From Methylobacterium platani (GTDB lineage: Bacteria > Pseudomonadota > Alphaproteobacteria > Rhizobiales > Beijerinckiaceae), in contig NZ_LWHQ01000047.1 in NCBI RefSeq assembly GCF_001653715.1, positions 62,001-126,000 on the forward strand: a stretch of DNA of 64,000 bases, in the 5' to 3' direction. A program made the position numbers and the translations under genes. Under the pieces are notes generated by a model. The model was not told the DNA's origin. It worked only from the letters and a program-made list of their open reading frames with translations, and ran no database searches. Of this stretch, positions 345 to 58,864 are shown piece after piece; within the stretch, counting starts at the first letter, position 1, and every line of letters starts with the position of its first letter.

Positions 345-1127
345 ATGCCGCGCTTTGCCGCGAACCTGACCCTGATGTTCACCGAGGTCCCGTTCCTCGA
401 CCGCTTCGCCCAGGCGGCGGAGGCCGGGTTCGAGGCGGTCGAGTTCCTGTTTCCCTACGAGCACCCGCCGGAGGCGATCGGCGAGCGGCTGAAGGCGCAC
501 GGCCTGACCCAGGCCCTGTTCAACCTGCCCCCCGGCGACTGGGCCGCGGGCGAGCGCGGCCTGGCGGCGCTGCCCGACCGGTTCGAAGAGCTGAAGGGTG
601 GCGTCGAGACGGCGCTGGCCTACGCGCGCGCCACCGGCGTCGCGCGCCTGCACCTGATGGCCGGCATGGCCGACCGGAGCGACCGACAAGCGCAGGATTC
701 CTATCGCCGCGCCGTCGCCTGGACGGCGGAGCGGCTCGAGCGCGAGGGGCTCGACCTCGTGCTGGAGCCGATCAACGCCCGCAACATGCCGGGCTACTTC
801 CTCGACGATTTCGGCTACGCCGCCGCGCTGATCCGCGAATTGGCGCGCCCGAACCTGAAGCTGCAGTTCGACCTCTACCACTGCCAGATCCTGCACGGCG
901 ACGTAACGATGCGGCTGCGCGCCCTGATGCCGATGATCGGCCACGTCCAGACCGCGAGCGTGCCCGAGCGGCACGAGCCCGGCAGCGGCGAGATGAACGA
1001 CGCCGTCCTGTTCGCCGAGCTCGACCGCCTCGGCTACGACGGCTTCATCGGCTGCGAGTACAACCCGCGGTCCGGCACGCGCGAGGGCCTGGGCTGGTTC
1101 ACCCCCTACAAGGGAGCACGGGCATGA
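345..1127 (+). CDS. otnI: 2-oxo-tetronate isomerase (hydroxypyruvate isomerase family)
   Basis: A 260-residue TIM-barrel protein of the xylose-isomerase-like/Hyi family. Residues matching the metal and acid-base set of this family are visible: Glu141 (EPIN), Asp176 (QFDLYH), Gln202 and Glu238. OtnI interconverts 2-oxo-tetronate and 3-oxo-tetronate in the cytoplasm, feeding the kinase encoded next. The start is supported by an AGGGAGGA ribosome-binding site about 6 bases upstream of the ATG. The stop overlaps the start of otnK in an ATGA, indicating translational coupling. A plain hydroxypyruvate isomerase is the alternative, but the kinase partner favours the tetronate pathway. Confidence 0.88.
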   Translation: MPRFAANLTLMFTEVPFLDRFAQAAEAGFEAVEFLFPYEHPPEAIGERLKAHGLTQALFNLPPGDWAAGERGLAALPDRFEELKGGVETALAYARATGVARLHLMAGMADRSDRQAQDSYRRAVAWTAERLEREGLDLVLEPINARNMPGYFLDDFGYAAALIRELARPNLKLQFDLYHCQILHGDVTMRLRALMPMIGHVQTASVPERHEPGSGEMNDAVLFAELDRLGYDGFIGCEYNPRSGTREGLGWFTPYKGARA

Positions 1128-2392
1128 CCCTGGCGCTGGGCTGCATCGCCGACGACTATACCGGCGCCTCCGACCTCGCCAACACCCTGACCAAGGCGGG
1201 CCTGCGCACGGTCCAGACCATCGGGGTGCCGGCGGACGACCTCGCCCTGCCCGAGGTCGACGCCGTCGTGGTCTCGCTCAAGAGCCGGTCGATCCCCGCC
1301 GACGAGGCGGTGGCGCGCTCGCGCGAGGCCGCCGCGTGGCTGAACGCCAGGGGCGCCGGCCACCTGCTGTTCAAGGTCTGCTCGACCTTCGATTCGACCG
1401 ACGCGGGCAATATCGGCCCGGTCACCGACGCGCTGCGCGCGGATGCCGGCGATGCGATCGCGCTCGTCACCCCGGCCTTCCCGGAGACGGCGCGCACCGT
1501 CTATCTCGGCCACCTCTTCGTCGGCGCGGTGCCGCTCGCCGAGAGCCCGCTGAAGGACCATCCGCTCAACCCGATGCGGGATTCGAACCTGGTGCGGGTG
1601 CTGGCGCGCCAGAGCCGGGCGGAGGTCGGGCTGATCGACCTCGCGACGGTGGCGCAAGGCGCCGACGCGGTGAGCGCGCGGCTCGATGCCCTGGCGACGG
1701 ACGGCAAGGGGGCGGCGATCGCCGACGCGGTGCTCGACCGCGACCTCGCGGTGCTGGGCGCGGCGGCGCTGACCCGCAGGATCTCGACTGGCGCCTCGGG
1801 CCTCGGCCTCGGCCTCGCCCGCGCGCTGGTGGCGGCGGGCCGCGTCGCCCCGGCGGCCGCCGAATCCGATCTCGGCCCCGCGATCGGCGGCCCGGCGGCC
1901 TGCCTTGCCGGCAGCTGCTCGCAGGCGACCCTCGGGCAGATCGCCCGGGCCGAGGCCGTCATGCCGGTGCGCCGCCTCGATCCCGCGCGGCTGCTCGCCG
2001 GCGAGGACGAGGCCGGCGCGGCGCTCGCCTGGGCGAAGGAGCGGATCGGCGACGGCCCGGTGCTGATCGCCAGCAGCGCCGGCCCGGAGGAGGTCGCCGC
2101 GGTCCAGGCGCGTCACGGCCGCGACGCCGCCGGCCACGCCATCGAGGCCGCGATGGCGCGGATCGCCGAGGGGCTGGTCGCCCTGGGGGTGCGCCGCCTG
2201 GTGGTGGCGGGCGGCGAGACCTCCGGCGCCGTGGTCGACCGCCTCAGGCTTCCGGCCTTCCGGGTCGGCCCCGAGATCGCCGCCGGCGTGCCGGTCCTGC
2301 GCACCACCGACCGCGACATGTGGCTGGCGCTCAAGTCCGGCAATTTCGGCGGGCCGGACTTCTTCGCCGATGCGCTCGCGTTGATGCCGTAG
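1124..2392 (+). CDS. otnK: 3-oxo-tetronate kinase (DUF1537 family)
   Basis: 422 residues, two-domain four-carbon acid sugar kinase. The N-terminal signature ADDYTGA (residues 9-15) and the C-terminal nucleotide-binding GGETSGAVV are both present. OtnK phosphorylates 3-oxo-tetronate to the 4-phosphate, which is then decarboxylated to a triose phosphate. The ATG at 1124 is embedded in the stop of otnI; the frame stays open upstream but that stretch overlaps otnI and is not used. The aldolase/decarboxylase (OtnC) that normally completes the route is not in this window downstream; it may lie upstream of base 1 or elsewhere. Confidence 0.9.
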   Translation: MTLALGCIADDYTGASDLANTLTKAGLRTVQTIGVPADDLALPEVDAVVVSLKSRSIPADEAVARSREAAAWLNARGAGHLLFKVCSTFDSTDAGNIGPVTDALRADAGDAIALVTPAFPETARTVYLGHLFVGAVPLAESPLKDHPLNPMRDSNLVRVLARQSRAEVGLIDLATVAQGADAVSARLDALATDGKGAAIADAVLDRDLAVLGAAALTRRISTGASGLGLGLARALVAAGRVAPAAAESDLGPAIGGPAACLAGSCSQATLGQIARAEAVMPVRRLDPARLLAGEDEAGAALAWAKERIGDGPVLIASSAGPEEVAAVQARHGRDAAGHAIEAAMARIAEGLVALGVRRLVVAGGETSGAVVDRLRLPAFRVGPEIAAGVPVLRTTDRDMWLALKSGNFGGPDFFADALALMP

Positions 2393-9060: not shown

Positions 9061-9095
9061 GTGCGCCAACTTTGGCGTTGCTGGCCGGGTCTTCT

Positions 9096-9289
9096 CCTCT
9101 CCCCGCAGGCGGGGAGAGGGCCGTGCGCCTGTTCAGGGTGCACGGCAAGCGAAGGCGCAGCCGGAGCGAGGGTGAGGGGGTTATCTCCGGATGAGGCTCC
9201 TCCGGAAACACCCCCTCACCCTCGCCCTGCGGGCTCACTGCGCTCCCTGAACGGGAGCACAGTCCTCTCCCCGCCCGCGGGGAGAGGAG
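9096..9289. repeat. Composite palindromic intergenic element, copy 1
   Basis: Nested inverted repeats: an outer hairpin on each side (CCTCTCCCC / GGGGAGAGG at 9096-9119 and again at 9264-9289), an inner pair GGTGAGGGGG (9171-9180) and CCCCCTCACC (9211-9220), and a core around CCGGATGAGGCTC. The element occupies the gap between gltA and the convergent denD. The same architecture recurs at 13277, 22846, 26272 and 28039. No protein frame is convincing within it. Confidence 0.75.
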
Positions 9290-9319
9290 AAACCCGCGTT
9301 TTGACGACGAAGACGGACC

Positions 9320-10303
9320 TTACGCCGGCACCTTCCCGCCCAGCTCGTCCTCGATATGCGCCCGCACGATGGCGTCGAAGTCGGGCTCGGCCTTGAAGCC
9401 GAGGTCCAGCGCGCGCCGCGCGTCGAAGGTGCGGGGCCAGCCGGCGACGATGCGCTCGATGGTGGGATCGGGCTCGCGGCGGATGCGGGCGACGGCGGAC
9501 TCACCGGCGGCGCGGCGCAGGGCCTCGATCTGCTCGGCGACCGTCGCTCCGACGCCCGGCATGGTCAGGTTGCGGCGGTCGCCGAGGCGCTTGGTGTCGA
9601 GCGTCGCGGCGTGGATCAGGAAGCCGACCGCCGAGCGCGGCGAGGCGTGCCAGTGGCGGACCTGGTCGGAGACCGGCAGCACCGCCTCCTGGCCGGCCAG
9701 CGGCTCGCGGATGATGCCGGAGAAGAAGCCCGACGCCGCCTTGTTGGGCTTGCCCGGCCGCACGCAGATGGTCGGCAGGCGGATGCCGACGCCGTCGAAG
9801 ATGCCGCGGCGGGAGTAGTCGGAGAGCAGCAATTCGCCGATCGCCTTCTGGGTGCCGTAGCTGGTGAGCGGCGCCGTCAGGTACTCGTCGGGGATCGGCT
9901 CGGGCATCGGCGCGCCGAACACCGCCACCGACGAGGTGAAGACGAAGCGAGGCTTGTAGCCCTCGCCGATCGCCCGCACCGCGTCGTAGAGGCGGCGGGT
10001 GCCGTCGAGGTTGATCCGGTAGCCCTTGTCGAAATCGGCCTCGGCCTCGCCCGACACGATGGCGGCGAGGTGGAAGATCACGTCCGGCCGGCCGGCGACG
10101 AGACGCTCGGCCTCGCCGGGCTCGGAGAAGTCGGAGGCCGAGAGCGAGACCGGGATCGCGGTGCCGGCGGGGGCTTCCGGCGGCACCACGTCGTGCAGGG
10201 TCAGGCGCGAGATCGTCTCGCCGCCGAGCGAGCCGTCCTTGACCAGCCGGTCGAGGAGCTTGCGGCCGACCATGCCGGCGGCGCCGAGGATGAGGATATG
10301 CAT
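9320..10303 (-). CDS. denD: D-erythronate dehydrogenase
   Basis: 327 residues of the extended short-chain dehydrogenase/epimerase superfamily. The NAD-binding loop is GAAGMVG (residues 7-13); the catalytic Ser lies in FTSSVAVFGAP and the Tyr-Lys pair in SYGTQKAIGE. The sequence resembles DenD, which oxidises D-erythronate to 2-oxo-tetronate, the substrate of OtnI encoded near the start of the window. In many genomes denD and otnIK are adjacent; here gltX, gltA and comEC lie between. It is the last gene of a minus-strand run, 16 bases after the SDR gene. Confidence 0.82.
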   Translation of the reverse strand: MHILILGAAGMVGRKLLDRLVKDGSLGGETISRLTLHDVVPPEAPAGTAIPVSLSASDFSEPGEAERLVAGRPDVIFHLAAIVSGEAEADFDKGYRINLDGTRRLYDAVRAIGEGYKPRFVFTSSVAVFGAPMPEPIPDEYLTAPLTSYGTQKAIGELLLSDYSRRGIFDGVGIRLPTICVRPGKPNKAASGFFSGIIREPLAGQEAVLPVSDQVRHWHASPRSAVGFLIHAATLDTKRLGDRRNLTMPGVGATVAEQIEALRRAAGESAVARIRREPDPTIERIVAGWPRTFDARRALDLGFKAEPDFDAIVRAHIEDELGGKVPA

Positions 10304-10319
10304 CGTCGTGTCTCCGTCC

Positions 10320-11072
10320 TCAGAGCGTGAAGCCGCCGTCGGCGACGTGGGTCTGGCCGGTGGTGAAGCGGGATTCGTCCGAGGCGAGGTAGACGGCGAG
10401 GGCGGCCATCTCCTCCGGGGTGCCGAGGCGGCCCATCGGCTGGCGGTCGATGAAGGCCTGGCGGGCGGCCTCGACCGAGGTCTTGTTCATTTCCGCGAGC
10501 GCCGCGATGCGGTCGTCGAGGGAGGGCGACTGGATCGTGCCGGGGCAGATCGCGTTCGCCCGCACGCCGCTGCGGATGAAGTCCCGCGCCACCGCCTTGG
10601 TGAGACCGACCACCGCCGCCTTCGAGGCACCGTAGACGTAGCGGTTCGGCGCGGTGGCGTCCGCCCCGACCGCCGAGGCGATGTTGACGATCGAGCCGTT
10701 GCCGCGCTCCAGCATGCCGGGCAGGAAGGCCCGGATCGTGCGGTGCATCGAGCGCACGTTGAGGTCGAAGGCCAGCTCCCACTCGGCGTCGGTGCAGTCG
10801 AGGATGGTGCCGTGGTGGACGAAGCCGGCGGCGTTCGCCAGCACGTCGACCGGCCCGGCCTGCCTGGCGAAGTCCGCGATCGCCGTCTCCGAGCGTACGT
10901 CGAGGGAGAAGGCCCTGGCGCCGTTCAGCCCGTCGAGCTTGCCCGCGTCGAGATCGGTCGCCAGCACCTCGGCGCCCTCGGCGAGGAACGCCGCCGCGAT
11001 GGCGCGGCCGATCCCCTGCCCCGCCGCCGTCACGACCGCGCGCTTGCCCGTCAGCCGTCCCGCCATGTCCAT
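10320..11072 (-). CDS. SDR-family NAD-dependent sugar-acid/hydroxyacid dehydrogenase
   Basis: 250 residues, classical short-chain dehydrogenase: cofactor loop TAAGQGIGRAIA near residue 15, NAAG, catalytic Ser in NIASAVG, and YGASK with the catalytic Tyr and Lys. An acidic residue after the second strand (ATDLDAG) suggests NAD preference. It resembles the BDH2/DHRS6-like group, which in bacteria includes 2-keto-3-deoxy-L-fuconate dehydrogenases. Next to an IlvD/Edd dehydratase and DenD, oxidation of a 2-keto-3-deoxy sugar acid is a reasonable inference. Start: ATG at 11072, with an alternative ATG two codons later. Confidence 0.8.
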   Translation of the reverse strand: MDMAGRLTGKRAVVTAAGQGIGRAIAAAFLAEGAEVLATDLDAGKLDGLNGARAFSLDVRSETAIADFARQAGPVDVLANAAGFVHHGTILDCTDAEWELAFDLNVRSMHRTIRAFLPGMLERGNGSIVNIASAVGADATAPNRYVYGASKAAVVGLTKAVARDFIRSGVRANAICPGTIQSPSLDDRIAALAEMNKTSVEAARQAFIDRQPMGRLGTPEEMAALAVYLASDESRFTTGQTHVADGGFTL

Positions 11073-11126
11073 TCCTCCCGTGATGTCCCGCCCTGCTCGT
11101 TGGCGGGCTTGTCGTGTGTCGCCGCT

Positions 11127-12287
11127 TCAGGCGAGGCGCTTGTGCATATGCACCAGGCGCCGGTCCGGCAGATCCTCGACCCGCGCGGTGGCGTAGCCCC
11201 GCCGCGCGTACCAGTCGATGTTCCGCACGAGCTTGTCCCCGGTGTAGAGCCGTAGCTCTGACAGGTCGAGGTCCCGCGCCCGCGCTTCGGCCGCCGCCAG
11301 CAGGGTGTTGCCGAGGCCGGATCCCTGGTGCGCCGGATCGACCGCGACGCTCCAGATCGTCAGGTGGTCGGGCGCAGGATCGAGCACCAGGGCGCCAACG
11401 GGCGCGCCGTCGGTCTCCGCCAGCCAGACCTCGTAGCGCCCCAGCACCTCGGCGGCGGGCGTGAGGAGCGGCACCGGCTCGACGCCGAGCAACGGCCGGT
11501 TCGGCGCGTAGGCGGCTTCCTGCAACGCCGCGAGAGCGGATTCGTCGGCGGTGGTCGCCCGGTGCAAGCCGCTCCCTGAGATCGTCGCCCGGTTGAGCGC
11601 GCCGAGGCGGAAGCTCTGGCCGCCGTCGAGATTGGCCGGATCGAGCCAGCGGTCGAAGCCCTGCCGGATCTGCGGCCACTCGCCGTCGAGCATCGAGAAC
11701 CAGGCCGTGTCGCGGTTGCGGCCCTTCACGATCATGCCCTGGCGGAACAGCCCCTCGTAGGAGAAGCCGAGCCGCTCGGCCGCCCGGCGCGAGGGCGCGT
11801 TGAGGGCGTTGCACTTCCACTCGTAGCGGCGATAGCCGAGGCCGAAGACGTAACCGGCCATGAGCCGCATCGCCTCGGTGGCGCCGGGGGTGCGCTGCAA
11901 GGCGGGGGTGTAGAGGATGTTGCCGACCTCGATCACCCGATTCGCCCGGTCGATCCGCATCAGGGCGGCGTGGCCGATCGCCTTTCCCGTCCGGGCGTCC
12001 AGGATGGCGTAGAACAGCGGATCGGCGGAGGCCGCGCAGGCTTCGAGAGTGGCCTGGAAGCTCTCGCGATCGTCGAACGGGCCGGCCGCCATGTACTGCC
12101 ACAGGGCTTCGCTGCCGGGGCCGACCGCGCCCTCGGCGAGATCGGCGCCGTGCGCCGCCGCGTCGAGGGGCACGATCCTGACGTGGCGCCCGTCGAGGCG
12201 CACCCGCTCCGGCGCCGGCGCCGGGCCGGCCTGCGCGACAGGCCGGCCGATCGGCAGGCCGGTGACGGGATCGCGATCGGAGTTCAT
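11127..12287 (-). CDS. Tandem GNAT acetyltransferase fusion
   Basis: 386 residues with two acetyltransferase domains. The N-terminal half (about 25-210) is RimJ/RimL-like, with IGHAALMRID and AAERLGFSYEGLFRQG. The C-terminal half (about 230-386) is a second GNAT domain with the acetyl-CoA loop VDPAHQGSGLGNTLL and YARRGYATARVE. The ATG at 12287 overlaps the stop of the upstream lyase gene (ATGA), so the two are translationally coupled; the frame continues upstream but overlaps that gene and is rejected. The acceptor substrate is unknown. Coupling to a lyase in a sugar-acid operon is unusual for a ribosomal-protein-type acetyltransferase. Confidence 0.85.
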   Translation of the reverse strand: MNSDRDPVTGLPIGRPVAQAGPAPAPERVRLDGRHVRIVPLDAAAHGADLAEGAVGPGSEALWQYMAAGPFDDRESFQATLEACAASADPLFYAILDARTGKAIGHAALMRIDRANRVIEVGNILYTPALQRTPGATEAMRLMAGYVFGLGYRRYEWKCNALNAPSRRAAERLGFSYEGLFRQGMIVKGRNRDTAWFSMLDGEWPQIRQGFDRWLDPANLDGGQSFRLGALNRATISGSGLHRATTADESALAALQEAAYAPNRPLLGVEPVPLLTPAAEVLGRYEVWLAETDGAPVGALVLDPAPDHLTIWSVAVDPAHQGSGLGNTLLAAAEARARDLDLSELRLYTGDKLVRNIDWYARRGYATARVEDLPDRRLVHMHKRLA

Positions 12288-13135
12288 GCGCCGCCCCGCT
12301 CCTTCAGGTCCTTGCGGAAGAACCCGTTGATCTCGGAAAAACCGACCGAGCCGTCGAAGCCGCCGAAGCTGCCCTCGTCGTGGATGCGCTTGGCGGCGCG
12401 GATGAAGCCGGTCCAGGCCGCCCGCGCCAGCGACGAGCCGACGCTGATCCGGCGCACGCCCAAGCCTTCGAGGTCGGCGACCTTGAGGCCCGGATTGGTG
12501 CTCATCAGGATGTTGACCGGCACCGGCGCCAGCGCCTCGACGAGCGTCCGGATCTCCTCGCGCCGCTTCGGCCCGGGGGCGTAGACGACGTCGGCGCCGG
12601 CCTCGGCATAGGCCTGGAGCCGGCGGATCGCCTCCGGCAGCGGCTCGGGATGGCCGGTGAGGTAGCATTCGGCCCGGCCGGTCAGCATCACGTCGGCGCC
12701 GGACGCATCGATCGCGGCCTTCGCGGCGCGGATGCGCGCGGCGCCCTCCCGGATGTCGTAGAGCGGCCGGGCGGGATCGCCGGTGGCGTCCTCGATCGAC
12801 AGGCCGGCGACGCCGGTGGCGATGCAGGCCGTCACGTTGCGGGCGACGCCCTCGGGATCGTGGGCGTAGCCCGATTCGAAATCGGCGTTCACCGGCAGGT
12901 CGGTGGCGGCGACGATCTCGGCGATGTGGGCGAGCATCGCGTCGAGCGGCACCGCCCAGTCGGTGTCCGGCAGGGCGCGGGTGAAGGCGAAGCCGGAGCT
13001 GGTGGTGGCGAGCGCCGGGAACCCCATCGCCGCGAGGTAGCGGCTGGTGCCGATATCCCAGGGATTCGGCATCACGAAGCAGCCGGATTCGTGCAGCCGC
13101 CGGAAGGCGGCGCGGCGTGCGGCGAGATCGGTCAT
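12284..13135 (-). CDS. Isocitrate lyase/PEP mutase-family carbon-carbon lyase
   Basis: 283-residue TIM-barrel of the ICL/PEP mutase superfamily. Metal-binding and core motifs are visible: NADFESGYAHDPEGV, LSIEDATGD and MLTGRAECYLTG. The KKCGH-type catalytic loop of true isocitrate and methylisocitrate lyases is not seen, so it is one of the uncharacterised members whose known relatives include 2-methylisocitrate lyase, oxaloacetate decarboxylase and petal-death-type lyases. The ATG at 13135 has GGGGGAG 6 bases upstream, better than a start 10 codons earlier. It leads the coupled lyase-GNAT pair. Confidence 0.84.
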   Translation of the reverse strand: MTDLAARRAAFRRLHESGCFVMPNPWDIGTSRYLAAMGFPALATTSSGFAFTRALPDTDWAVPLDAMLAHIAEIVAATDLPVNADFESGYAHDPEGVARNVTACIATGVAGLSIEDATGDPARPLYDIREGAARIRAAKAAIDASGADVMLTGRAECYLTGHPEPLPEAIRRLQAYAEAGADVVYAPGPKRREEIRTLVEALAPVPVNILMSTNPGLKVADLEGLGVRRISVGSSLARAAWTGFIRAAKRIHDEGSFGGFDGSVGFSEINGFFRKDLKERGGA

Positions 13136-13276
13136 CGGGGCTCCCCCACCCTTCGGTCCGGACACTTCCTCACACGGCGCGAGCGCGGCTGTAAATCGGC
13201 CGGGCGGGCGAAATCTTTCCTGTCGGCCTGCGGGCTGGGCGGCGAGCCGTGCTGCCCGGATGAGGCGCGGAAAAAT

Positions 13277-13462
13277 CCCCTCTCCCCGCCGGGCGGGGAG
13301 AGGCCTTCACCCCCTCGTCGGGGGTGAAGGTAGCCCGAAGGGCGAGGGTGAGGGGGTATTGCCGGAAGAGGCTCATCCGGAGCCGCCCCCTCACCCTCGG
13401 CTGCCGCCTCGCTTTGGTGACGACAAGGTCACCAAAGCCCTCTCCCCGCCCGCGGGGAGAGG
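13277..13462. repeat. Composite palindromic intergenic element, copy 2
   Basis: Outer hairpins CCTCTCCCCGC/GCGGGGAGAGG at both ends, inner GGTGAGGGGG paired with CCCCCTCACC, and the core CCGGAAGAGGCTCATCCGG. An additional inverted repeat CTTTGGTGAC / GTCACCAAAG lies at 13413-13438. The element fills the 368-base gap between the IlvD/Edd gene and the lyase gene; no gene is seen there. Confidence 0.78.
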
Positions 13463-13503
13463 GGGGAGATGCGCACCGTTCGGCGCGATCCGGGGAGGCC
13501 CCG

Positions 13504-15315
13504 TCAGTGGTTGTCGCGCGGCACGCCGTGGACCTGCGCGATGCGCTGGAACGCCTCGGAGCCCTTGAGGATCATGCCCTCGGAGAGCTGGTCGACCATC
13601 GCGCGCTGGATCGCCTGCCAGGGGGTCTGGCTCGCCGGGTAGGGGTAGCCGCCCCGGGCATTCAGGTCGTCGCGGCGGCGCCAGATCTCCTCCTCGGGGA
13701 GGAGGATGTCGGCGGTGCGCTTGTTGAGGTCGATCCGGACCCGGTCGCCGTTCTGGAGCAGCGCCAGGCCGCCGCCGGCCGCCGCCTCCGGCGAGGCGTT
13801 GAGGATCGAGGGCGTGCCGGAGGTGCCGGACTGGCGCCCGTCGCCGATGCAGGGCAGCGACAGCACGCCCTTGCGGATCAGCTCGCCCGGGGGCTGCATG
13901 TTCACGACTTCCGCCGCGCCCGGATAGCCGATCGGGCCGGCGCCGCGCATGATCAGTACGGTGTGCTCGTCAATCTCGAGCGCCGGGTCGTCGATGCGGT
14001 GGTGGTAATCCTCCGGCCCGTCGAACACCACGACCCGGCCCTCGAAGGCGTAGGGGTCGTCCGGGTTGGCGAGGTAGCGGTCGTAGAACTCGCGGCTGAT
14101 CACGCTGGTCTTCATGATCGCGGAATCGAACAGCGAGCCCTTGAGGTTGAGGAAGCCGGCGCGCTCGCGCATCGGCTCGCCGTAGGGCTTGATGACGTCG
14201 CGGTCCCAGGTGTGGGCGTTCGTGCAATTCTCGGCAATCGTCTTGCCGTTGCAGGTCAGCGCCTCGCCGTGGAGCTTGCCGGCCTCGAGCAGTTCCGACA
14301 TCACCGCCGGCAGGCCGCCGGCGCGATAGTATTCCTCGCCGAGATACTGGCCGGCGGGCTGCATGTTGACGAGGAGCGGGATGTCGTAACCGACGCGCTC
14401 CCAGTCGTCGCAGGAGAGCGGCACGCCGATCAGCTTGGCGATGGCGTTGATGTGGATCGGCGCGTTGGTCGAGCCGCCGATGGCGGTGTTGGCAACGATC
14501 GCGTTCTCGAACGCCTCGCGGGTGAGGATGTCGGAGGGCTTCAGATCCTCCCACACCATGTCGACGATGCGCTGGCCGGTGGCGTAGGCCGCCTGGCCCC
14601 GCTCGCGGTAGGGCGCGGGGATCGCCGCCGAGCCCGGCAGCGCCATGCCGAGCGCTTCGGCCAGCGCGTTCATGGTCGAGGCGGTGCCCATCGTGTTGCA
14701 ATGCCCGGTCGAGGGCGCCGAGGAGGCCACGATGTCGAGGAACTGCTGGTAGTCGATGTCGCCGGCGGCGTGGCGCTCGCGGGCCTTCCATACCACGGTG
14801 CCTGAGCCCGTGCGCTCGCCGCGGCTCCAGCCGTTCAGCATCGGGCCGACATTCAGCGAGATCGTCGGGATGTTCACGGTGGCGGCCGCCATCAAGCAGG
14901 CCGGCATGGTCTTGTCGCAGCCGGTGAGCAGCACGACGCCGTCGAGGGGATAGCCGTACAGCACCTCGACCAGCGAGAGGTAGGCGAGGTTGCGGTCGAG
15001 CGAGGCGGTCGGCCGCTTGCCGGTCTCCTGGATCGGGTGGCACGGGAACTCGAAGGCCACGCCGCCGGCCGCCGTGATGCCCTCGCGCACGCGCTTGGCG
15101 AGCTCGAGGTGGTGGCGGTTGCACGGCGACAGGTCCGAACCCGTCTGGGCGATGCCGATCAACGGCTTGCCGCCGCGCAGCTCGCCGACGGTCAGGCCGA
15201 AATTGAGGTAGCGCTCGAGGTAGAGCGCGGTCATGCCCGGGTTGTCCGGGTTGTCGAACCAGAGGCGCGAACGCAGGCGGCTGGCGTCGATGCGGGGGCG
15301 CGGCGTCTGGGCCAT
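13504..15315 (-). CDS. IlvD/Edd-family sugar-acid dehydratase
   Basis: 603 residues. The iron-sulfur ligands of this family are in place: Cys65 (TGSDLSPCN), Cys133 ([10 protein letters not shown]) and Cys206 (STGHCNTMG). Length and motifs match the branch that dehydrates pentonates and hexonates such as L-arabinonate, D-xylonate or galactonate to 2-keto-3-deoxy acids, rather than dihydroxyacid dehydratase IlvD, whose usual sequence is about 560 residues. The ATG at 15315 is preceded by a spacer carrying a perfect 7-bp inverted repeat. Downstream genes on the strand (lyase, SDR, DenD) fit a sugar-acid route. The exact substrate cannot be read from sequence. Confidence 0.9.
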
Positions 15316-15347
15316 GGCGGGGTCGTCCTTCCCGAGATCGTTCTTGT

Positions 15348-15362
15348 CGAGAACCGTTCTCG
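15348..15362. promoter_or_regulatory. Candidate operator upstream of the dehydratase gene
   Basis: CGAGAAC-C-GTTCTCG, a perfect 7+1+7 palindrome, 33-47 bases upstream of the dehydratase start. Size and symmetry suit a LacI- or GntR-type repressor. No such regulator gene is adjacent. Confidence 0.5.
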
Positions 15363-15845: not shown

Positions 15846-17024
15846 ATGCCCGTGATCGTCCCCGCCTTCTCGCGCATCGGGGAGGAGAACGCCTTCGCGG
15901 TCCTCGCCCGCGCCACGGCTCTCGCCCAGGCCGGCCGCGACGTGATCAACCTCGGCATCGGCCAGCCCGACATGCCGACCCCGCCCCACGTCGTCGAGGC
16001 GGCGGTGAAGGCCCTGCACGACGGCCACCACGGCTACACCCCGGCGACCGGCATCCTCCCCTTGCGCGAGGCGGTGTCCCGCGACCTCGACCGGCGCCTC
16101 GGCGTCCAGGTCTCGCCCGACAGCGTGATGATCGTGCCGGGCGGCAAGGTCACCATGTTCATGGCGATCCTGATGTTCGGCGAGCCGGGGGCCGAGATCC
16201 TGTACCCGGATCCGGGCTTCCCGATCTACCGCTCGATGATCGAGTTCACCGGCGCGACGCCGGTGCCGGTGCCGATCCGCGAGGCGAACGGCTTCGCCTT
16301 CTCGGCCGAGGAGACGCTCTCGCTCATCACGCCGCGCACCCGCCTCTTGATCCTCAATTCTCCCGCCAATCCCACGGGGGGCGTGACCCCGAAGGCCGAG
16401 ATCGACAAGCTGGTGGCGGGACTGGCCGCTCATCCCGACGTAACGATCATGTCGGACGAGATCTACGGCACGATGACCTACGACGGCGAGCGCCATCACA
16501 CGCTGCTCGCCTATCCGGAGATCCGCGACCGGCTGATCTACCTCGACGGCGCCTCGAAGACCTACGCGATGACCGGCTGGCGCCTCGGCTGGTCGGTCTG
16601 GCCGGCGCCGCTCTACGACGCCGCCCGCAAGCTCGCGGTGAACTCGTTCTCCTGCGTCAACGCCGCGACGCAATGGGCCGGGATCGCGGCGCTGGACGGG
16701 CCGCAGGACTGCGTCGCCGCGATGATGGCCGAGTTCGACCGCCGCCGCCTGCTGGTGGTCGAGGGGCTGAACCGCCTGCCCGGCGTGTCCTGCATCACCC
16801 CGAAGGGCGCCTTCTACGCTTTCCCGAACATCGGCGGCACCGGCTGGAAGGCCAAGGCGCTCGCCTCGGCGCTCCTGGAGGAGGCCGGCGTCGCGACGAT
16901 CGGCGGGCCGGATTTCGGCATCCACGGCGAGGGCTACCTGCGCCTGTCCTACGCCAACTCGGCGGAGAACATCGCGCGGGCGCTGGAGCGGATCGGCGCC
17001 TTCCTGGAGACGAACCGGCGCTGA
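15846..17024 (+). CDS. PLP-dependent class I/II aminotransferase
   Basis: 392 residues, fold-type I aminotransferase of the aspartate/aromatic transaminase group. The Schiff-base lysine is Lys238 in [26 protein letters not shown] and the C-terminal YLRLSYAN arginine that binds the substrate carboxylate are also visible. It transfers an amino group between an amino acid and a 2-oxoacid in the cytoplasm. Substrate range cannot be fixed from sequence. AACGAGAG upstream is a modest ribosome-binding site. A long hairpin follows the stop. Confidence 0.9.
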
Positions 17025-21083: not shown

Positions 21084-21953
21084 TCAGGGCGGGGCAGCCC
21101 CGATGATCGCCCGGCGCAGGCGGCCCGAGACGAGGTCGATCAGCGCCACCGTGACGAGGATCATCAGCACCAGGAAGGCGACCTGCTGCATCTCGAGCAC
21201 CCGGATCAGCTCGGTCAGGTACTGGCCGATGCCGCCGGCCCCGACGATGCCGATGATGGTGGCCGAGCGGGTGTTCGATTCGAAGAAGTAGAGCACCTGG
21301 CTCGCCAGCACCGGGAGCACCGCCGGCACCAGGCCGAAGCGGACCCGGTGCAGCCGCCCGCCGCCCGAGGCGGTCACGCCCTCCTGCGCCTTGCGGTCGG
21401 CGGTCTCGATCGCCTCGGAGAACAGCTTGCCGAGCGCCCCGAAATCCGAGCACGCGATGGCGAGCGCACCTGCGAAGGGACCGAGGCCGACGACGTTGAT
21501 CCAGATCAGCGCCCAGATCAGCACGTCGACCGAGCGGATCACGTCGAAGCTGCGGCGCACCCCGAAGCGCAGGAAGGGGTTTCGCACCACGTTGCGGGCG
21601 GCCAGGAACGCCACCGGAAAGGCGAGGCAGGCCGCCGTCAGCGTGCCGAGGAACGCGATCGCCAGGGTCTCCCCGAGGGCGGTCGCGAACAGGCCGAGGC
21701 GTCCGCCGGCCGAGGGCGGCAGCATCATGCCGGCGAACTCGCCCAGGCGGTGCAGGCCGTGGAGGATGCGCAGGAGCGAGAAATCGAGCCGCACCATCGC
21801 GACCACCGCCAGGGCGACGATCACCGCGAGGGTGCCCAGGACGGCCGCGCGGCGCGACCACGCCGGCCGGAAGACCCGGGGGTGTCGCTGCCGCAGGCCG
21901 TCGAGATCGGCGAGCGCCGCCTGACGCAGGGGAGAGGACGGGCGGCGGTTCAT
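21084..21953 (-). CDS. phnE: Phosphonate ABC transporter permease, second copy
   Basis: 289 residues, inner-membrane permease with about six hydrophobic segments and the PhnE-type coupling region ESNTRSATIIGIVGAGGIGQ. It pairs with the other PhnE to form the channel served by PhnC and PhnD. The ATG at 21953 overlaps the stop of the first permease gene (ATGA), which shows tight co-translation. The reading frame continues far upstream but overlaps the other phn genes and is not used. Two unequal permeases are usual in rhizobial and Methylobacterium-like phn operons. Confidence 0.92.
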   Translation of the reverse strand: MNRRPSSPLRQAALADLDGLRQRHPRVFRPAWSRRAAVLGTLAVIVALAVVAMVRLDFSLLRILHGLHRLGEFAGMMLPPSAGGRLGLFATALGETLAIAFLGTLTAACLAFPVAFLAARNVVRNPFLRFGVRRSFDVIRSVDVLIWALIWINVVGLGPFAGALAIACSDFGALGKLFSEAIETADRKAQEGVTASGGGRLHRVRFGLVPAVLPVLASQVLYFFESNTRSATIIGIVGAGGIGQYLTELIRVLEMQQVAFLVLMILVTVALIDLVSGRLRRAIIGAAPP

Positions 21954-22834
21954 GCGTGGGCCTCCCGGCCGAGGAGGTGGTGGCGCAGGCGCTCGGTGGC
22001 GAGGTCGATCGTCACCACGGTGAGGATGACGAGGAGCAGGATCGCGCTCACGTCCGAGTAGTAGAAGTTGCGGATCGCCACCAGGAACTCCTGGCCGATG
22101 CCGCCGGCCCCGACGAAGCCCATCACGCCGGCGCCCCGCACGTTGATCTCGAAGCGCAGCAGCGCGTAGGACGCGAAGTTCGACAGGACCTGCGGCACCA
22201 CCGCGAAGCGCACGGTCGCGACGAGGCCGGCCCCGGTTCCGGTCAGGCCCTCGACCGGCTTCATGTCGATGTTCTCGACGACCTCCGAGAACAGCTTGCC
22301 GAGCGCGCCGGCCGTGTGGATGGCGATGGCGAGCACGCCGACCATCGGCCCGAGCCCGAAGGCGATGACGAAGATCAGCGCGAACACCACCTCGGGCACC
22401 GTGCGGCACACTTCCAGGAAGCGCCGGGCCACGAACCGGATCGTCCGTGAGCGCACCAGGTTGGCCGAGGCGAGGAAGCACAGGAGGAAGGCCGCGATGC
22501 CGCCGAGCAGCGTGCCGAGATAGGCCATCAGGATGGTCTCGGCGAGGAGCCCGAGCCATTTCGGCAGGCCCCAGTACCAGGCCGCCACATCCGCCGGCAG
22601 GTTCGCCAGGGTCAGGACCGGCATGATCTGGTCGAGATAGGCGGTGAAGTTCTGGATGTTGTCGAGGAAGGTGAGCGGCCGCACCTCGGCCATCCAGCCG
22701 GCGAGGAGGTAGAGCGCCGCAATCGCGACGACGATCGCCAGGGTGCGGCGGTGCGAGGCGGCGACGGCGCCGGAATACGCGGCGAGCAGGGTGCTCTCGC
22801 GGTCGGGCGGGAGTTTCTCGATGTGGACGGTCAC
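21950..22834 (-). CDS. phnE: Phosphonate ABC transporter permease, first copy
   Basis: 294 residues with about six membrane segments. The conserved cytoplasmic loop reads FEINVRGAGVMGFVGAGGIG, which contacts the ATPase. It forms the transmembrane part of the phosphonate importer with the next gene. About 200 bases separate it from phnD; that space carries a composite palindromic element, which may lower permease expression relative to the binding protein. Confidence 0.93.
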   Translation of the reverse strand: MTVHIEKLPPDRESTLLAAYSGAVAASHRRTLAIVVAIAALYLLAGWMAEVRPLTFLDNIQNFTAYLDQIMPVLTLANLPADVAAWYWGLPKWLGLLAETILMAYLGTLLGGIAAFLLCFLASANLVRSRTIRFVARRFLEVCRTVPEVVFALIFVIAFGLGPMVGVLAIAIHTAGALGKLFSEVVENIDMKPVEGLTGTGAGLVATVRFAVVPQVLSNFASYALLRFEINVRGAGVMGFVGAGGIGQEFLVAIRNFYYSDVSAILLLVILTVVTIDLATERLRHHLLGREAHA

Positions 22835-22845
22835 GGAAAAGGCTC

Positions 22846-23010
22846 CTCCCCTCCCCCTTGTGGGGAGGGGTCAGGGGGATCGAAGATCCCGCGTGGGGGT
22901 GGTGCCGGATGAGGCTCAGCGGTGCCTCCTGCACCACCCCCACCCCTAGCCCCTCCCCACAACTTGCAGCGATACCGGGCAAGCCCGGGATCGCCTGGGG
23001 GAGGGGAGGC
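22846..23010. repeat. Composite palindromic intergenic element, copy 3 (diverged)
   Basis: CCTCCCC...GGGGAGG hairpins at both ends around a core GCCGGATGAGGCTCAGC and an inner GGGGGTGGTGC / GCACCACCCCC pair. The layout matches the other copies but the outer arms have drifted. It lies inside the phn operon between phnD and phnE. Confidence 0.65.
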
Positions 23011-23032
23011 GCCATACCTGCAAGACGTCGTT

Positions 23033-23959
23033 CTACGACCGCTTGCGCTGCTCGTCGTTGTGGCGGAGCATCTCGATGATCGGCTGGTAGTCCTTCAGCG
23101 TCACCGGGGTGAGGTCGAGGTCCTTGCCGTCCGAGAGCTTGTCGAAGGCGGCCTTGTCCTTGGTCGGGAGATCGATGAAGGCCTGGCGGATCGTCTGCTT
23201 CAGGTCGTCGGGCAGGCTGGCGAGGACCGCGAAGGGCCCCTCGGGCAGGAACTCGGACTTGAAGACGACGCGGAAGTCCGACTGCTTCATCGGCGTGCCG
23301 TCGGCGTTCTTCACCATGCCCTTGGCCAGCATCCGGGTCAGGTTGCTGTCGGTGTCGGAGTTCCAGAAATTGGCGGCGGCGTCCGCGGTGCCCTGGGCGA
23401 GCGCCAGGACGGCGTTCTCGTGGCTGCCGGCATAGAAGGTCTTGCCGAAGAACTTGTCGACGTCGTGGCCGGCCTTGTGCAGGAAGAAGCGCGGGGCCTG
23501 GTTGCCGGAGGTCGAGTTCGGATCGACGAGGGCGAGGCTCTTGCCCTTCAGGTCCTCGATCGACTTGTAGGGGCTGTCGGCCCGGACGTAGATCACCGAG
23601 TAGTAGCCCGACACCCCGGTCTCGTGCTTCTGGTTGACCACCGGCTCGATCTTCACGCCGGTGATGACGGCGCGGGCGAAGGAGGCCGGACCGTAGAAGG
23701 CGATCTGGATGTTGCCGGCGCGCTGGCCCTCGATCACCGCCGCGTAGTCGTTGGCGACCCGCAGCTTCACCGGCACGCCGAGCTGCTTGGTGAGGTAGGC
23801 GGTGAGCGGGGTCCAGCGGTCGACGGTGCCCGAGGCGTTCTCGGCCGGGATGACGCCGAGCGTCAGCTCGGGATATTTCGCCTTCCAGTCCTGAGCCAGG
23901 GCGGGGCCGGCGGCGAGCATCAGGGCGGCGGCGCCCACGAGGGTGCGACGGTTCAGCAT
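23033..23959 (-). CDS. phnD: Phosphonate ABC transporter substrate-binding protein
   Basis: 308 residues. A signal peptide covers residues 1-22 (LVGAAALMLAAGPALAQ, cleavage after AQ). The mature part is a type II periplasmic binding protein of the PhnD group with the RVANDYAAVIEGQ and GKSLALVDPNSTSGN regions seen in phosphonate binders. It captures phosphonates in the periplasm and delivers them to the PhnE pair. 29 bases separate it from phnC upstream. Confidence 0.93.
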   Translation of the reverse strand: MLNRRTLVGAAALMLAAGPALAQDWKAKYPELTLGVIPAENASGTVDRWTPLTAYLTKQLGVPVKLRVANDYAAVIEGQRAGNIQIAFYGPASFARAVITGVKIEPVVNQKHETGVSGYYSVIYVRADSPYKSIEDLKGKSLALVDPNSTSGNQAPRFFLHKAGHDVDKFFGKTFYAGSHENAVLALAQGTADAAANFWNSDTDSNLTRMLAKGMVKNADGTPMKQSDFRVVFKSEFLPEGPFAVLASLPDDLKQTIRQAFIDLPTKDKAAFDKLSDGKDLDLTPVTLKDYQPIIEMLRHNDEQRKRS

Positions 23960-23988
23960 CGATCAAGTCCTTCTCGGAACGGGAAAAT

Positions 23989-24810
23989 TCAGGCGCTCAG
24001 CGCCTCGGCGTGGCGGATCGGGGCCCGCATCGGCCGCGGCCGCGTCTCGGGCTCGCCGCGGTCCATCACCTCGCCGGCCTCGAGGCCGTAGAGGGTGCGG
24101 GCGACGTCCTCGGTGAGGTCGAAGCCGCGGCCGTCGAACACCACCCGGCCCTCCGAGAGGCCGATCAGCCGGTCGCAATAGGCGCGGGCGAGGTCGAGGG
24201 AGTGCAGGTTGCACAGCACCGTGATGCCGTAGCGCCTGTTGGCGTCGGCGAGCGCATCCATCACCAGGCGGGTGTTGCGGGGATCGAGGGAGGCCACCGG
24301 CTCGTCGGCCAGGATGATCTCCGGCTCCTGCACCAGGGCGCGGGCGATGGCGACGCGCTGCTGCTGGCCGCCCGACAGCTGGTCGGCCCGGTTGGCGGCA
24401 AAGCCCCCCATGTCGAAATTCTCGAGCGCGGCGAGCGCCAGCGCCCGGTCCTCCTCGCTCCACAGCTTGAGCAGCGAGCGGTGGGCCGGCACCTGGTCGA
24501 GCCGGCCCATCAGCACGTTCGTCATCACGTCGAGCCGGCCGACGAGGTTGAACTGCTGGAAGATCATCGCGCAGCGGGCACGCCAGGCGCGGAGCGCCCG
24601 GCCGCGCAAGCGCGTCACGTCGGTGCCGTCGTAGAGGATGCGCCCGCCCGTCGGGTCGGCGAGGCGGTTGAGCATCCGCAGCAGGGTCGACTTGCCGGCG
24701 CCCGAGCGCCCGATCACGCCGACGAAGCTGCCGCGCTCGATGGAGAGGCTGACGCCGTCCACGGCGCGGCGCGCCCCGTACTGACGGGTGAGATTCTCGA
24801 CAACCAGCAT
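23989..24810 (-). CDS. phnC: Phosphonate ABC transporter ATP-binding protein
   Basis: 273 residues, cytoplasmic ATPase: Walker [10 protein letters not shown] (34-42), signature LSGGQQQR, Walker [13 protein letters not shown]. The PhnC group imports phosphonates or phosphate esters with PhnD and PhnE. I use the ATG at 24810 ([12 protein letters not shown]); a GTG at 24828 in frame would add six residues but lacks a visible ribosome-binding site. It follows the hexapeptide transferase gene by 75 bases. Confidence 0.92.
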
Positions 24811-24885
24811 CCGTTCGCCTGTTTCCACTGTTCGGGCGAACGTAAACGCCGGTTGAACGACAACACGATGACGGTCCGTCAGTGC

Positions 24886-25503
24886 TTAGCCGGCGTATTT
24901 ATTCAGGAAATCCTCGATCGGGAGGGCGCGAAAGTCGGGGAGCGCCTGCCGCAGGCGGTCGTGGTCCCAGTCCCACCAGGCGAGCGCCAGCAAGCGCGCG
25001 GCGGTCGCTTCGTCGAAGCGGCGGCGGACGGGGCGAGCCGGATTGCCGACCACGATGGCGTAGGGCTCGACGTCCCGGGTGACGATGGCGCCGGCCCCGA
25101 CGACCGCGCCGGTGCCGATGCTGCGCCCGGGCAGCACCACGACCCCGTGGCCGATCCAGACGTCGTGGCCGATGGTGACGGGGCTCGCCCGGCGCCGGTC
25201 GAAGAAGGCCGGCTCGTTCGATTCGTCAGGCCAGTACGAGGCGGCGCGGTAGGTGAAGTGGCTCTGCGAGGCCCGCTCCATCGGGTGGTTGCCCGGGTTG
25301 ATCCGCACCATCGCGGCGATCGAGCAGAACTTGCCGATGGTGGTGTAGATCACCTCGCCGTCGTTGCCGATGTAGGAGTAGTCGTCGAGCGAGGTCTCGG
25401 TGAGCTGCGTGCGCGGGCCGATCTCGGTGTAGCGGCCGAGGCGGCATTCCCGGACCCGGGCGGTCGGGTCGATGACGGGCTCCAGGCCCAGTTGTCCGGC
25501 CAT
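24886..25503 (-). CDS. Phosphonate-locus hexapeptide-repeat acetyltransferase
   Basis: 205 residues with left-handed beta-helix hexapeptide repeats, including [16 protein letters not shown] and [16 protein letters not shown], and the C-terminal [13 protein letters not shown] seen in CatB/LacA-type transferases. This subgroup is characteristically found inside C-P lyase (phn) operons and probably acetylates an aminophosphonate, analogous to PhnO; that role is inferred. The ATG at 25503 lies 4 bases after the stop of the DUF1045 gene, so the two are translated together. Confidence 0.87.
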
Positions 25504-25507
25504 GTCG

Positions 25508-26185
25508 TCAGCCTCCGAGAGCGATGCGCCGCAAGACCCGGAACGGGCCGGCACCGTCCTGGCGCAGCACCGACAGGGCATCGAGGGTCAGCGGCGCGCC
25601 GGCGCCGTAGGCGGCGGCCAGGCGCTCGCGCCAGGGGGCGCGGTCGGCTTCCGGCAGGGCGTCGGTGAGGGTCATGTGGAAGCGGAACGCCTCGAAGACG
25701 TGCGGGTAGCCCCAGGCCGCCAGCAGCGCCCGGCCGCGGGGGCTCAGGCGCTCGGGCTTGCGGCGGGCGGTCTCGGATTCGGTCAGGGGCGCGCGGAACG
25801 GCTCGAAGGCGGCGACGCATTCGGCGGCGAACAGGCCGAGGTCCGGCGGCGCGGCCTGCGGGATCAGCGCCGTGAAGGCGCCCAGCGTCGCGACCTTGAG
25901 GGGACCGACCGGGATCGGCGGATGATCGGCGGCCAGCGCCTCCGCCGCCGCCAGCAGGCCGGCCTCGGTGGTGCCGGGAGCAAGCCGCATCGGCGCCTTC
26001 AGGGTGGCGTGGAAGCCGTAGACCCGTGGGGAGTCCGTCACGCCCGCAAGATCGGCCAGCCCGTCGGGACGGGGGATCTCCGTGCCGGTGTGGTTGTCGT
26101 AGCCCAGGATCGCATTGCCGAACCGGGCGAGGTCCGAGCCGGGCTTCGGCGTGAAGTAGAGGGCGTAGCGCGTCGTGCCGGTCAC
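25508..26185 (-). CDS. DUF1045 phosphonate-metabolism protein (2H phosphoesterase-like)
   Basis: 225 residues. Two short His-containing motifs, [10 protein letters not shown] and FRFHMTLTD, fit the HxT/S signature pair of the 2H phosphoesterase superfamily to which DUF1045 is assigned. The family is confined largely to C-P lyase operons and may act on cyclic phosphoribosyl intermediates in place of PhnP; this is inference. GTG at 26185 is chosen because AAGGAGAA lies 6 bases upstream. It is the first gene of the minus-strand phn run. Confidence 0.87.
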
Positions 26186-57865: not shown

Positions 57866-58864
57866 ATGAAGCTCGCCAGCCTGAAGCACGGCCGCGACGG
57901 CCGCCTCGTCGTGGTCTCGCGCGACCTCACCCGCGCCACCGACGCCTTCATCGTGGTGCCGACGCTGCAGCGCGCCCTCGACGAGTGGGAGCGCTACGCC
58001 CCGGCGCTCGAGGCCCTGGCCGAGCAGCTCGAGCACGGCTCGGTGCCCTCGTTCCGCTTCCACGAGCACGATTGCGCCGCCCCCCTCCCCCGCGCCTATG
58101 CCCGCCGCCACGCCGCCGCCTGGCCGGCCTACCCGGCCCTGCTGCGCCAGGCCGCGGGCGCCGAGGCGCCGGCGGGCGAGGCGGCCCCCTTGCGCCACGC
58201 CGCCTCCGACGCCTTCCTGGGGCCCCGCGATCCCCTCGCGCACGACGATCCGGCCGCCTCCCTCGACCTCTCGGCGGGCCTCGCGGTCGTCACCGGCGAC
58301 GTGCCCCGGGGCGCCGACGCGGCCGCGGCGGCGGGCGCCGTCCGGCTGGTGGCGCTGGTGGCCGAGGTGATCCGCCACGACCGGCTGCGGCCGGACGGGC
58401 TCGACCTCGACGGGGCCGAGGCGCCGGCGCTCGCCGCGAGCCTGTCCCCCGTCGCGGTCACACCCGACGAGCTCGGCGAGGCCTGGCGCGACGGCGCTCT
58501 GCACCGCAAGCTCCTGGTCAGCCGCAACGGCAAGACGCTCGGCTGCCCCGAGTCCGGCGCGGATCTCGGGCACAGCCTCGTCGCCCTGGTGGCCGAGGCG
58601 GCGCGCCATCGCGCCCTCGGCGCCGGCACGATCGTCAGCGCCGGCCCGGTCTCGAACCGCGGCATCGACGGCGGACCCGGCCGCGCAGCCGCCGAGGGCG
58701 GCGCGGGCCATGCCTGCCTCGCCGAAGCCCGGGCGGCCGAGGCCCTGACCTCCGGCTGGGCCCGCACGCCCTATCTCGCGGCCGGCGACCGCTTCCGGAT
58801 CGAGATGAAGGATGCCGGCGGGCACTCGATCTTCGGGGCGATCGAGCACGACGTCGCCGGCTGA
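57866..58864 (+). CDS. Fumarylacetoacetate-hydrolase-family protein
   Basis: 332 residues. FAH fold with the C-terminal metal-binding region EMKDAGGHSIFGAIEH typical of the family, and a preceding cap domain with SLSPVAVTPDELG. Members cleave carbon-carbon bonds in 2-keto acids or act as acylpyruvases, hydratases or decarboxylases in aromatic breakdown. The neighbours do not point to one pathway. GGAGGGA lies 11 bases before the ATG. Confidence 0.86.
   Translation: MKLASLKHGRDGRLVVVSRDLTRATDAFIVVPTLQRALDEWERYAPALEALAEQLEHGSVPSFRFHEHDCAAPLPRAYARRHAAAWPAYPALLRQAAGAEAPAGEAAPLRHAASDAFLGPRDPLAHDDPAASLDLSAGLAVVTGDVPRGADAAAAAGAVRLVALVAEVIRHDRLRPDGLDLDGAEAPALAASLSPVAVTPDELGEAWRDGALHRKLLVSRNGKTLGCPESGADLGHSLVALVAEAARHRALGAGTIVSAGPVSNRGIDGGPGRAAAEGGAGHACLAEARAAEALTSGWARTPYLAAGDRFRIEMKDAGGHSIFGAIEHDVAG

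Follow-up and report, generated by a model that had tools for sequence, protein, structure and literature searches.

A Methylobacterium platani sugar-acid catabolic locus, probably of known modules, with an accessory lyase-acetyltransferase pair

Five neighbouring minus-strand genes in a 64,000-nucleotide stretch of Methylobacterium platani DNA (the window, G000:C47:62001-126000 within a 7.02-Mb genome) raise the question of whether they encode a new way of breaking down sugar acids or an arrangement of known ones. An earlier note on this DNA had recognized four of them, an IlvD/Edd-type dehydratase, a protein of the isocitrate lyase (ICL)/phosphoenolpyruvate (PEP) mutase superfamily (hereafter the lyase), a short-chain dehydrogenase/reductase (SDR) and the D-erythronate dehydrogenase DenD, and had joined them into an undescribed route in which the lyase makes the final carbon-carbon cut. 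Profile matches confirm these four genes at this place, and a tandem GNAT acetyltransferase gene, overlooked in the note, lies between the SDR and lyase genes. As set out below, we regard the locus as probably a sugar-acid catabolic locus composed of known modules, Route III and the D-erythronate pathway, to which an accessory lyase-GNAT pair has been added.

Dehydratase and predicted 4-dehydrogenase

The dehydratase (P0005) passes the model NF009560 with 1036 bits (cut-off 684) and stays below the L-arabinonate dehydratase equivalog NF009559 (524 bits, cut-off 882). Among structures in the Protein Data Bank (PDB) it scores 988.6 bits with 7m3k, deposited as a galactonate dehydratase, 820.3 bits with Caulobacter XylD (5oyn) and 490.8 bits with the L-arabinonate dehydratase 9evv. 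It contains the motifs SPCN at 63, TGCDKT at 131, GHCN at 204 and SGTSG at 496, which we take to represent the [2Fe-2S] cysteines and the active-site motif, and its last residue is a histidine, His603. Dehydratase loci were counted across one GTDB family, using 76 loci, one per genome; they come from 78 dehydratase matches in 77 genomes, of which G118 and one of the two copies in G052, the second, were omitted. A histidine directly before the stop was found in 75 of the 76, the remaining one being cut off. According to an excerpt of PMC11316719, the C-terminal histidine is fully conserved in the sugar-acid subfamily of IlvD/Edd. With every tested feature of a sugar-acid dehydratase present, the sequence supports the assignment of P0005 as such an enzyme, yielding a 2-keto-3-deoxy acid as the earlier note had supposed. 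Its substrate would most likely be D-xylonate or D-gluconate, because it scores higher with XylD than with 9evv (820 against 491 bits); one Bradyrhizobium cluster with additional genes for KdgK, Eda and a GntR-type LacI regulator also counts toward this substrate.

The SDR (P0002) matches L-2-keto-3-deoxyfuconate (L-KDF) 4-dehydrogenase (PDB 8y11/8xwk) over nearly its full length, with 265 bits and 134 of 245 aligned residues identical, and it agrees at 13 of 14 checked residues. Residues R144, T179, R188 and R210 form the R-T-R-R type-1 signature, corresponding to the Arg148/Thr183/Arg192/Arg214 set that defines type 1 in an excerpt of PMC11199699, and the S133-Y147-K151 triad and the NAD-binding Asp40 are likewise kept; P0002 differs from the characterized enzyme in that Trp252 of the latter is Phe248. 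In the same excerpt, the 8XWK/8Y11 enzyme prefers a 4S hydroxyl, acting on D-2-keto-3-deoxypentonate (D-KDP) and weakly on D-2-keto-3-deoxygluconate (D-KDG) while L-KDP (4R) is a poor substrate, and its W252F mutant shows a kcat/Km for L-KDF lowered by about an order of magnitude. Since this exchange impaired the L-KDF enzyme, P0002 may prefer a substrate without the C6 methyl, and as a type-1 SDR with phenylalanine at the pocket position that contacts the C6 methyl of L-KDF it makes this idea testable. NAD+-dependent oxidation of a 2-keto-3-deoxy acid at C4 is supported as the predicted activity of P0002, in line with the oxidation step of the earlier note. As far as the excerpt goes, dehydratase and SDR also fit each other, because D-KDP and D-KDG are the expected products of D-xylonate and D-gluconate.

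A dehydratase, a 4-dehydrogenase and a hydrolase make up Route III of PMC6336799, so that the claim of a combination outside the standard routes is not supported. In the excerpt of that paper, the Herbaspirillum huttiense 4-dehydrogenase C785_RS13675 and hydrolase C785_RS20550 convert the pentose-derived intermediate to pyruvate and glycolate, and the two are distant locus tags of one genome, the hydrolase gene lying away from the dehydrogenase gene. The M. platani locus resembles this system in its sugar-acid dehydratase, its type-1 SDR 4-dehydrogenase and an FAH hydrolase encoded far off; it differs in having an IlvD/Edd enzyme where H. huttiense cluster 1, as excerpted, has a UxaA/GarD-type D-arabinonate dehydratase, and in that its SDR gene is accompanied by additional genes for the lyase, GNAT and DenD. 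We propose that the IlvD/Edd enzyme would dehydrate a C5 or C6 aldonate, likeliest D-xylonate or D-gluconate, to a 2-keto-3-deoxy acid, that the SDR would oxidize this at C4 with NAD+ to a 2,4-diketo-3-deoxy acid, and that an FAH-family hydrolase encoded elsewhere would cut the diketo acid to pyruvate and glycolate or glycerate, as in Route III. A long FAH protein or the KdgK/Eda pair may take over some of the 2-keto-3-deoxy acid. DenD would oxidize D-erythronate, OtnI, OtnK and OtnC acting thereafter, and the lyase and the tandem GNAT protein would form an accessory pair and not the required cutting step.

The cutting step

The genome holds nine PF01557 (FAH) matches. Three of these proteins share 61-64% identity with the FAH encoded in a dehydratase-DenD-SDR-FAH cluster of Nitratireductor, and the copy on contig C41 passes the 2,4-didehydro-3-deoxy-L-rhamnonate hydrolase model NF053535 (514.6 bits, cut-off 500) and scores 383 bits with PDB 8gsr. 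One long FAH protein of about 395 residues, presumably of COG3970, is encoded on contig C8 and is 56% identical to a Sinorhizobium protein whose gene adjoins DenD. The window itself has a weak FAH-domain match (52 bits) at 58127-58819, which neither the rhamnonate-type nor the long FAH queries matched. Co-occurrence was followed in 119 genomes of the family, the SDR set comprising 70 genomes with matches of at least 62% identity (ten weaker rows of 54-58% were left out, which removed G086 and G103) and the FAH1 set (n = 99) being picked by hand, as long matches with more than 50% identity, from 107 at E 1e-40; the tests ignore kinship, save in a version with one genome per genus. Rhamnonate-type FAH occurs in 70 of the 70 SDR genomes. 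Long FAH is present in 53 of these 70 but in just 1 of the 49 genomes that lack the SDR; with one genome per genus the counts are 23 of 29 against 0 of 14. None of ten long-FAH neighbourhoods examined adjoins an SDR or DenD of the type found here.

The genome also encodes KdgK (54% identical to the Bradyrhizobium protein) and Eda (51%), which opens another explanation, namely that the 2-keto-3-deoxy acid is mainly phosphorylated by KdgK and split by Eda in a semi-phosphorylative Entner-Doudoroff route, with the SDR as a side branch. The two genes are adjacent and on the same contig as the locus, Eda matches occur in 21 of the 76 family loci, and four loci (L196, L202, L205 and L207) carry Eda near the dehydratase and SDR, with KdgK in the annotated L207. 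However, some 140 kb separate the pair from the locus, KdgK scores 322 bits where its equivalog model demands 400, and the SDR signature is intact, and we consider this an unlikely main route. As FAH hydrolases and KdgK/Eda are both encoded in the genome, the pathway has known predicted exits without the lyase, none of which is tied to it by position.

Several findings weigh against the Route III and D-erythronate assignment. A FAH1/2/3-like gene is found in 0 of the 76 family dehydratase loci, in stretches of up to about 9 kb on each side, so that the hydrolase assignment rests on presence in the genome and not on linkage. Rhamnonate-type FAH is near-universal (107 of 119 family genomes), and its presence therefore says little; two of the three copies in this genome have their own adjacent SDR. 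Long FAH is missing from 17 of the 70 SDR genomes, and it may instead be a 2-keto-3-deoxy-acid dehydratase of Route II, by analogy with C785_RS13680, a COG3970 protein adjoining the dehydrogenase C785_RS13675 and identified as D-KDP dehydratase in the excerpt of PMC6336799. In Azospirillum, a relative with 74% identity to the dehydratase belongs to an arabinose-type cluster with chvE-gguAB and genes for a Gfo/Idh/MocA oxidoreductase, a lactonase, a dihydrodipicolinate synthase (DHDPS)-family protein and an aldehyde dehydrogenase, for which reason we only infer the substrate of P0005. Of 67 genomes with both DenD and the SDR, 42 have the two on one strand and no more than 2 kb apart, tighter than two separate pathways need, and the repeated link of the lyase to this cluster hints at its importance there.

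The lyase and its tandem GNAT partner

The lyase (P0004) belongs to the ICL/PEP-mutase superfamily by its sequence, with a PF13714 (PEP_mutase) match of 260 bits (cut-off 31.5) and matches to PDB 4lsb (200 bits) and 2ze3 (170 bits). It remains under every NCBIfam cut-off, the best being prpB (65 bits, cut-off 354); as a methylisocitrate lyase, PEP mutase, phosphonopyruvate hydrolase or carboxyphosphonoenolpyruvate (CPEP) phosphonomutase it is rejected, at 65, 52, 36 and 36 bits against cut-offs of 320-420. Residues D57, D85, E87 and E115 are invariant in 36 aligned rows, and we take these acidic residues to be the metal site of the superfamily. In agreement with the earlier note, the protein has no KKCGH loop and reads IEDATGDPARPLYD at that place, while KRCGH or KKCGH is present in four of the five PF13714 paralogs of the genome (L247, L249, L250 and L251, not L248). 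P0004 shares with the PDB 4lsb/DFA0005 (2ze3) subfamily the D-x-E in the metal-site strand and the missing KKCGH loop, and differs in that its gene is coupled to a GNAT gene. The GNAT protein (P0003) has an N-terminal PF13302 and a C-terminal PF00583 domain, and PDB 3tcv matches its N-terminal half with 384 bits.

Downstream of the dehydratase, on the same strand and within 9 kb, GNAT is found in 47, SDR in 43, DenD in 35 and the lyase in 23 of the 76 loci; these counts are lower bounds, as 13 loci extend less than 8.3 kb downstream and 7 of the 76 less than 5 kb. The genes of the locus are more than chance neighbours. None of the 23 loci with the lyase is without GNAT, and 24 of the 53 that lack the lyase keep GNAT. 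In a wider set of 38 loci with both genes, the lyase precedes GNAT in 35 and follows it in 3, an exact 4-base overlap occurs in 22 and a spacing of at most 60 bases in 31; this set includes near relatives as well as L295, where a gap of -397 reflects a mis-called start, and L201, with a short lyase call. Of 30 family lyase loci, five lie outside the cluster, and the 1.5-kb flanks of these contain nothing that matches GNAT or the dehydratase. The same holds for stand-alone lyases in eight loci of a class-wide search and six plasmid stretches, except that L319 matches the C-terminal half of GNAT at 31% and that L313 and L325 have SDR matches of 32%; over all these loci the flanks covered were 1.5 kb or 5-6 kb. 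Such stand-alone proteins of the same subfamily are up to 62% identical, and the genes around the five annotated plasmid copies vary. The idea that in-cluster lyases form a single clade is rejected, since a 60-row tree needs 8 label changes, at least 4 of them forced by supported branches; the label is still clustered (8 changes against a shuffled mean of 18.2), and this tree does not distinguish whether the lyase was gained, lost or moved out of the cluster. Thus the lyase tends to join the cluster, stays close to GNAT and is dispensable.

These distributions bear on the proposal of the earlier note that P0004, rather than an FAH or DHDPS-type enzyme, cleaves a 2,4-diketo-3-deoxy or 2-keto-3-deoxy acid. 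Several points speak for it: the dehydratase loci lack FAH1/2/3-like genes, the lyase gene sits between those for the dehydratase and SDR and is coupled to GNAT, the metal-site residues are conserved, and the two gene orders and the lack of one in-cluster clade mean that the linkage arose more than once or was reshaped. Oxaloacetate acetylhydrolase provides a precedent for such chemistry in the superfamily, and its PDB entry 3lye is among the P0004 matches. Nevertheless, most dehydratase loci do without the lyase, many of them with GNAT in place, and relatives of the same subfamily stand alone. The genomes with a lyase cluster carry rhamnonate-type FAH in 25 of 25 cases and long FAH in 24 of 25, the latter against 18 of 24 GNAT-only genomes (the 25 include G037 and G041, in which the dehydratase is remote from the lyase-GNAT-SDR-DenD cluster, and the 24 include partial clusters). 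A complementary distribution, by which the lyase would replace FAH, is rejected in that the data lean the opposite way (Fisher p 0.049, the relatives not being independent). In three loci (L138, L277 and L279, in G015, G112 and G055) the in-cluster lyase has lost the near-invariant R154 and the GNAT pair is kept, which also speaks against cleavage by P0004; this loss is possibly a loss of the original activity. Because the lyase is optional, FAH is present alongside it and its relatives stand alone elsewhere, neither the distribution of the lyase nor what else the genome encodes supports an undescribed route with an ICL-type cut as its last step, and we judge cleavage by P0004 quite improbable.

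Our guess is that lyase and tandem GNAT are a linked accessory pair acting on a small oxo- or hydroxy-acid by-product, the former as a metal-dependent lyase or hydrolase. It is a long shot that a lyase-GNAT unit joined Route III clusters more than once and converts the 2,4-diketo-3-deoxy acid in a novel reaction, such as a retro-Claisen cut by the ICL-fold enzyme lacking KKCGH, with GNAT passing the acyl group to or from CoA; if true, sugar-acid catabolism would gain a new class of C-C bond cleavage.

At 21950-25581 the window also contains PhnD and PhnC, both passing their models, a PhnE-like permease recognized by neighbourhood only and a hexapeptide transferase (TIGR03308). These import genes, with the phosphonate-linked transferase, lie about 9-12 kb away, and together with the name PEP_mutase borne by PF13714 they suggest a role of P0004 in phosphonate metabolism. 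We give this role almost no credence, because P0004 misses the models of PEP mutase (52 against 320 bits) and phosphonopyruvate hydrolase (36 against 374 bits), and the PhnD, PhnE-like and hexapeptide proteins of the window are unmatched in the other 75 family dehydratase loci. A link between the locus and the phosphonate genes of the window is rejected on the latter ground.

DenD and the organization of the locus

DenD (P0001) passes the D-erythronate dehydrogenase model NF043036 with 385 bits (cut-off 325) and scores 513 bits with PDB 2hrz. The other D-erythronate genes lie 7-12 kb from it: besides OtnI and OtnK in the window, LtnD, OtnC (333 bits) and a LacI-type regulator are encoded just left of the window (L343:13429-16226), all of them above their model cut-offs with the exception of the regulator. 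OtnK occurs in 60 of 77 genomes with DenD against 2 of 42 without it, and in 37 of 42 in which SDR and DenD adjoin; an Otn gene is in the same fetched locus for just 4 of 66 DenD loci. DenD would most likely serve the D-erythronate pathway. All four protein models of DenD-OtnI-OtnK-OtnC are matched, and LtnD too, with the difference that DenD here adjoins the SDR and is separated from the otn genes. The two pathways thus occupy the same neighbourhood, perhaps owing to a single importer that takes up several aldonates. Among the 76 loci, 15 have a match to the solute-binding protein of a UgpC-type sugar importer and 32 to a GhrB-like 2-hydroxyacid dehydrogenase, and neither was found in this window. 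Among individual loci, L136, L299 and L189 have the SDR followed by two DenD copies in tandem, with 62% and 72% identity to P0001. In G108 (L143), GNAT and DenD occur together without SDR, lyase or dehydratase, the last being on another contig (L142, same genus). A variant cluster of Bradyrhizobium macuxiense (L207) comprises Eda, KdgK, DenD, an ABC importer, a GntR-type LacI regulator, the dehydratase and two SDR matches, with no lyase or GNAT match.

Table 1. Features in and around the locus, in window coordinates
Feature	Coordinates	Strand	Basis or remark
IlvD/Edd sugar-acid dehydratase, P0005, 603 aa	13504..15315	-	NF009560, PDB profile matches, motifs
ICL/PEP-mutase superfamily protein without KKCGH loop, P0004, 283 aa	12284..13135	-	PF13714, PDB 4lsb/2ze3
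Tandem GNAT acetyltransferase, P0003, 386 aa	11127..12287	-	PF13302, PF00583, PDB 3tcv
SDR, predicted type 1 2-keto-3-deoxy-sugar-acid 4-dehydrogenase, P0002, 250 aa	10320..11072	-	PDB 8y11/8xwk
DenD, D-erythronate dehydrogenase, P0001, 327 aa	9320..10303	-	NF043036, PDB 2hrz
OtnI, 2-oxo-tetronate isomerase	345..1127	+	NF043033, 367 bits, cut-off 325
OtnK, 3-oxo-tetronate kinase	1124..2392	+	NF043035, 548 bits, cut-off 350
Pyridoxal phosphate (PLP) aminotransferase, divergent neighbour of dehydratase	15846..17024	+	matched in 40 of 76 family dehydratase loci
Perfect palindrome GTTCTtgtcgAGAAC, candidate operator	15340..15354	.	25-39 bases ahead of dehydratase start
Terminator-like hairpin in repetitive extragenic palindromic (REP)-like repeats, dehydratase-lyase gap	13279..13303	-	5 such sites in 7 kb

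Because the GNAT gene begins within the last 4 bases of the lyase gene and the GNAT-SDR and SDR-DenD gaps measure 54 and 16 bases, 9320-13135 looks like a single unit (Table 1). The dehydratase is separated from the lyase by 368 bases, so that in this genome its co-transcription with this unit is uncertain; several other genera have only a short gap 3' of the dehydratase, for example of some 40 bases (L130) or 20 bases (L147). Terminator-like sites number 5 in 7 kb against a mean of 1.9 in shuffles. The locus is flanked by G+C-rich REP-like inverted repeats in intergenic gaps (13279-13470 and 9090-9290). A promoter scan at the locus gave no sigma-70-like site. The palindrome ahead of the dehydratase has one match in the window with at most one mismatch (0.32 expected; at least one match in 27 of 100 shuffles) and is present upstream of 3 of 163 dehydratase genes, all three from close Methylobacterium relatives, and it is possibly an operator. 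The closest named relatives compared are Methylobacterium tarhaniae (dehydratase 97% identical) and M. aquaticum (98%), and in the latter the cluster sits on a 1.57-Mb plasmid whose record carries no annotated genes at that place. Narrow searches of open-access papers found no report of the gene order of this locus and no relevant one of a link between lyase, GNAT and sugar acids, and no title on the locus appeared among the open-access papers listed on sugar acids in Methylobacterium. For DenD they yielded unrelated papers, and for DFA0005 none that contains the name.

In summary, a suspected new pathway can be sorted into known modules, by which a wrong annotation is avoided. What remains is the question of why an ICL-fold gene without the KKCGH loop is so frequently coupled to GNAT in sugar-acid clusters of the GTDB family of Methylobacterium and of some related Hyphomicrobiales. 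If the lyase-GNAT pair acts on the Route III intermediate, it would represent another way to cut it; if not, the pair may mark an undescribed by-product.

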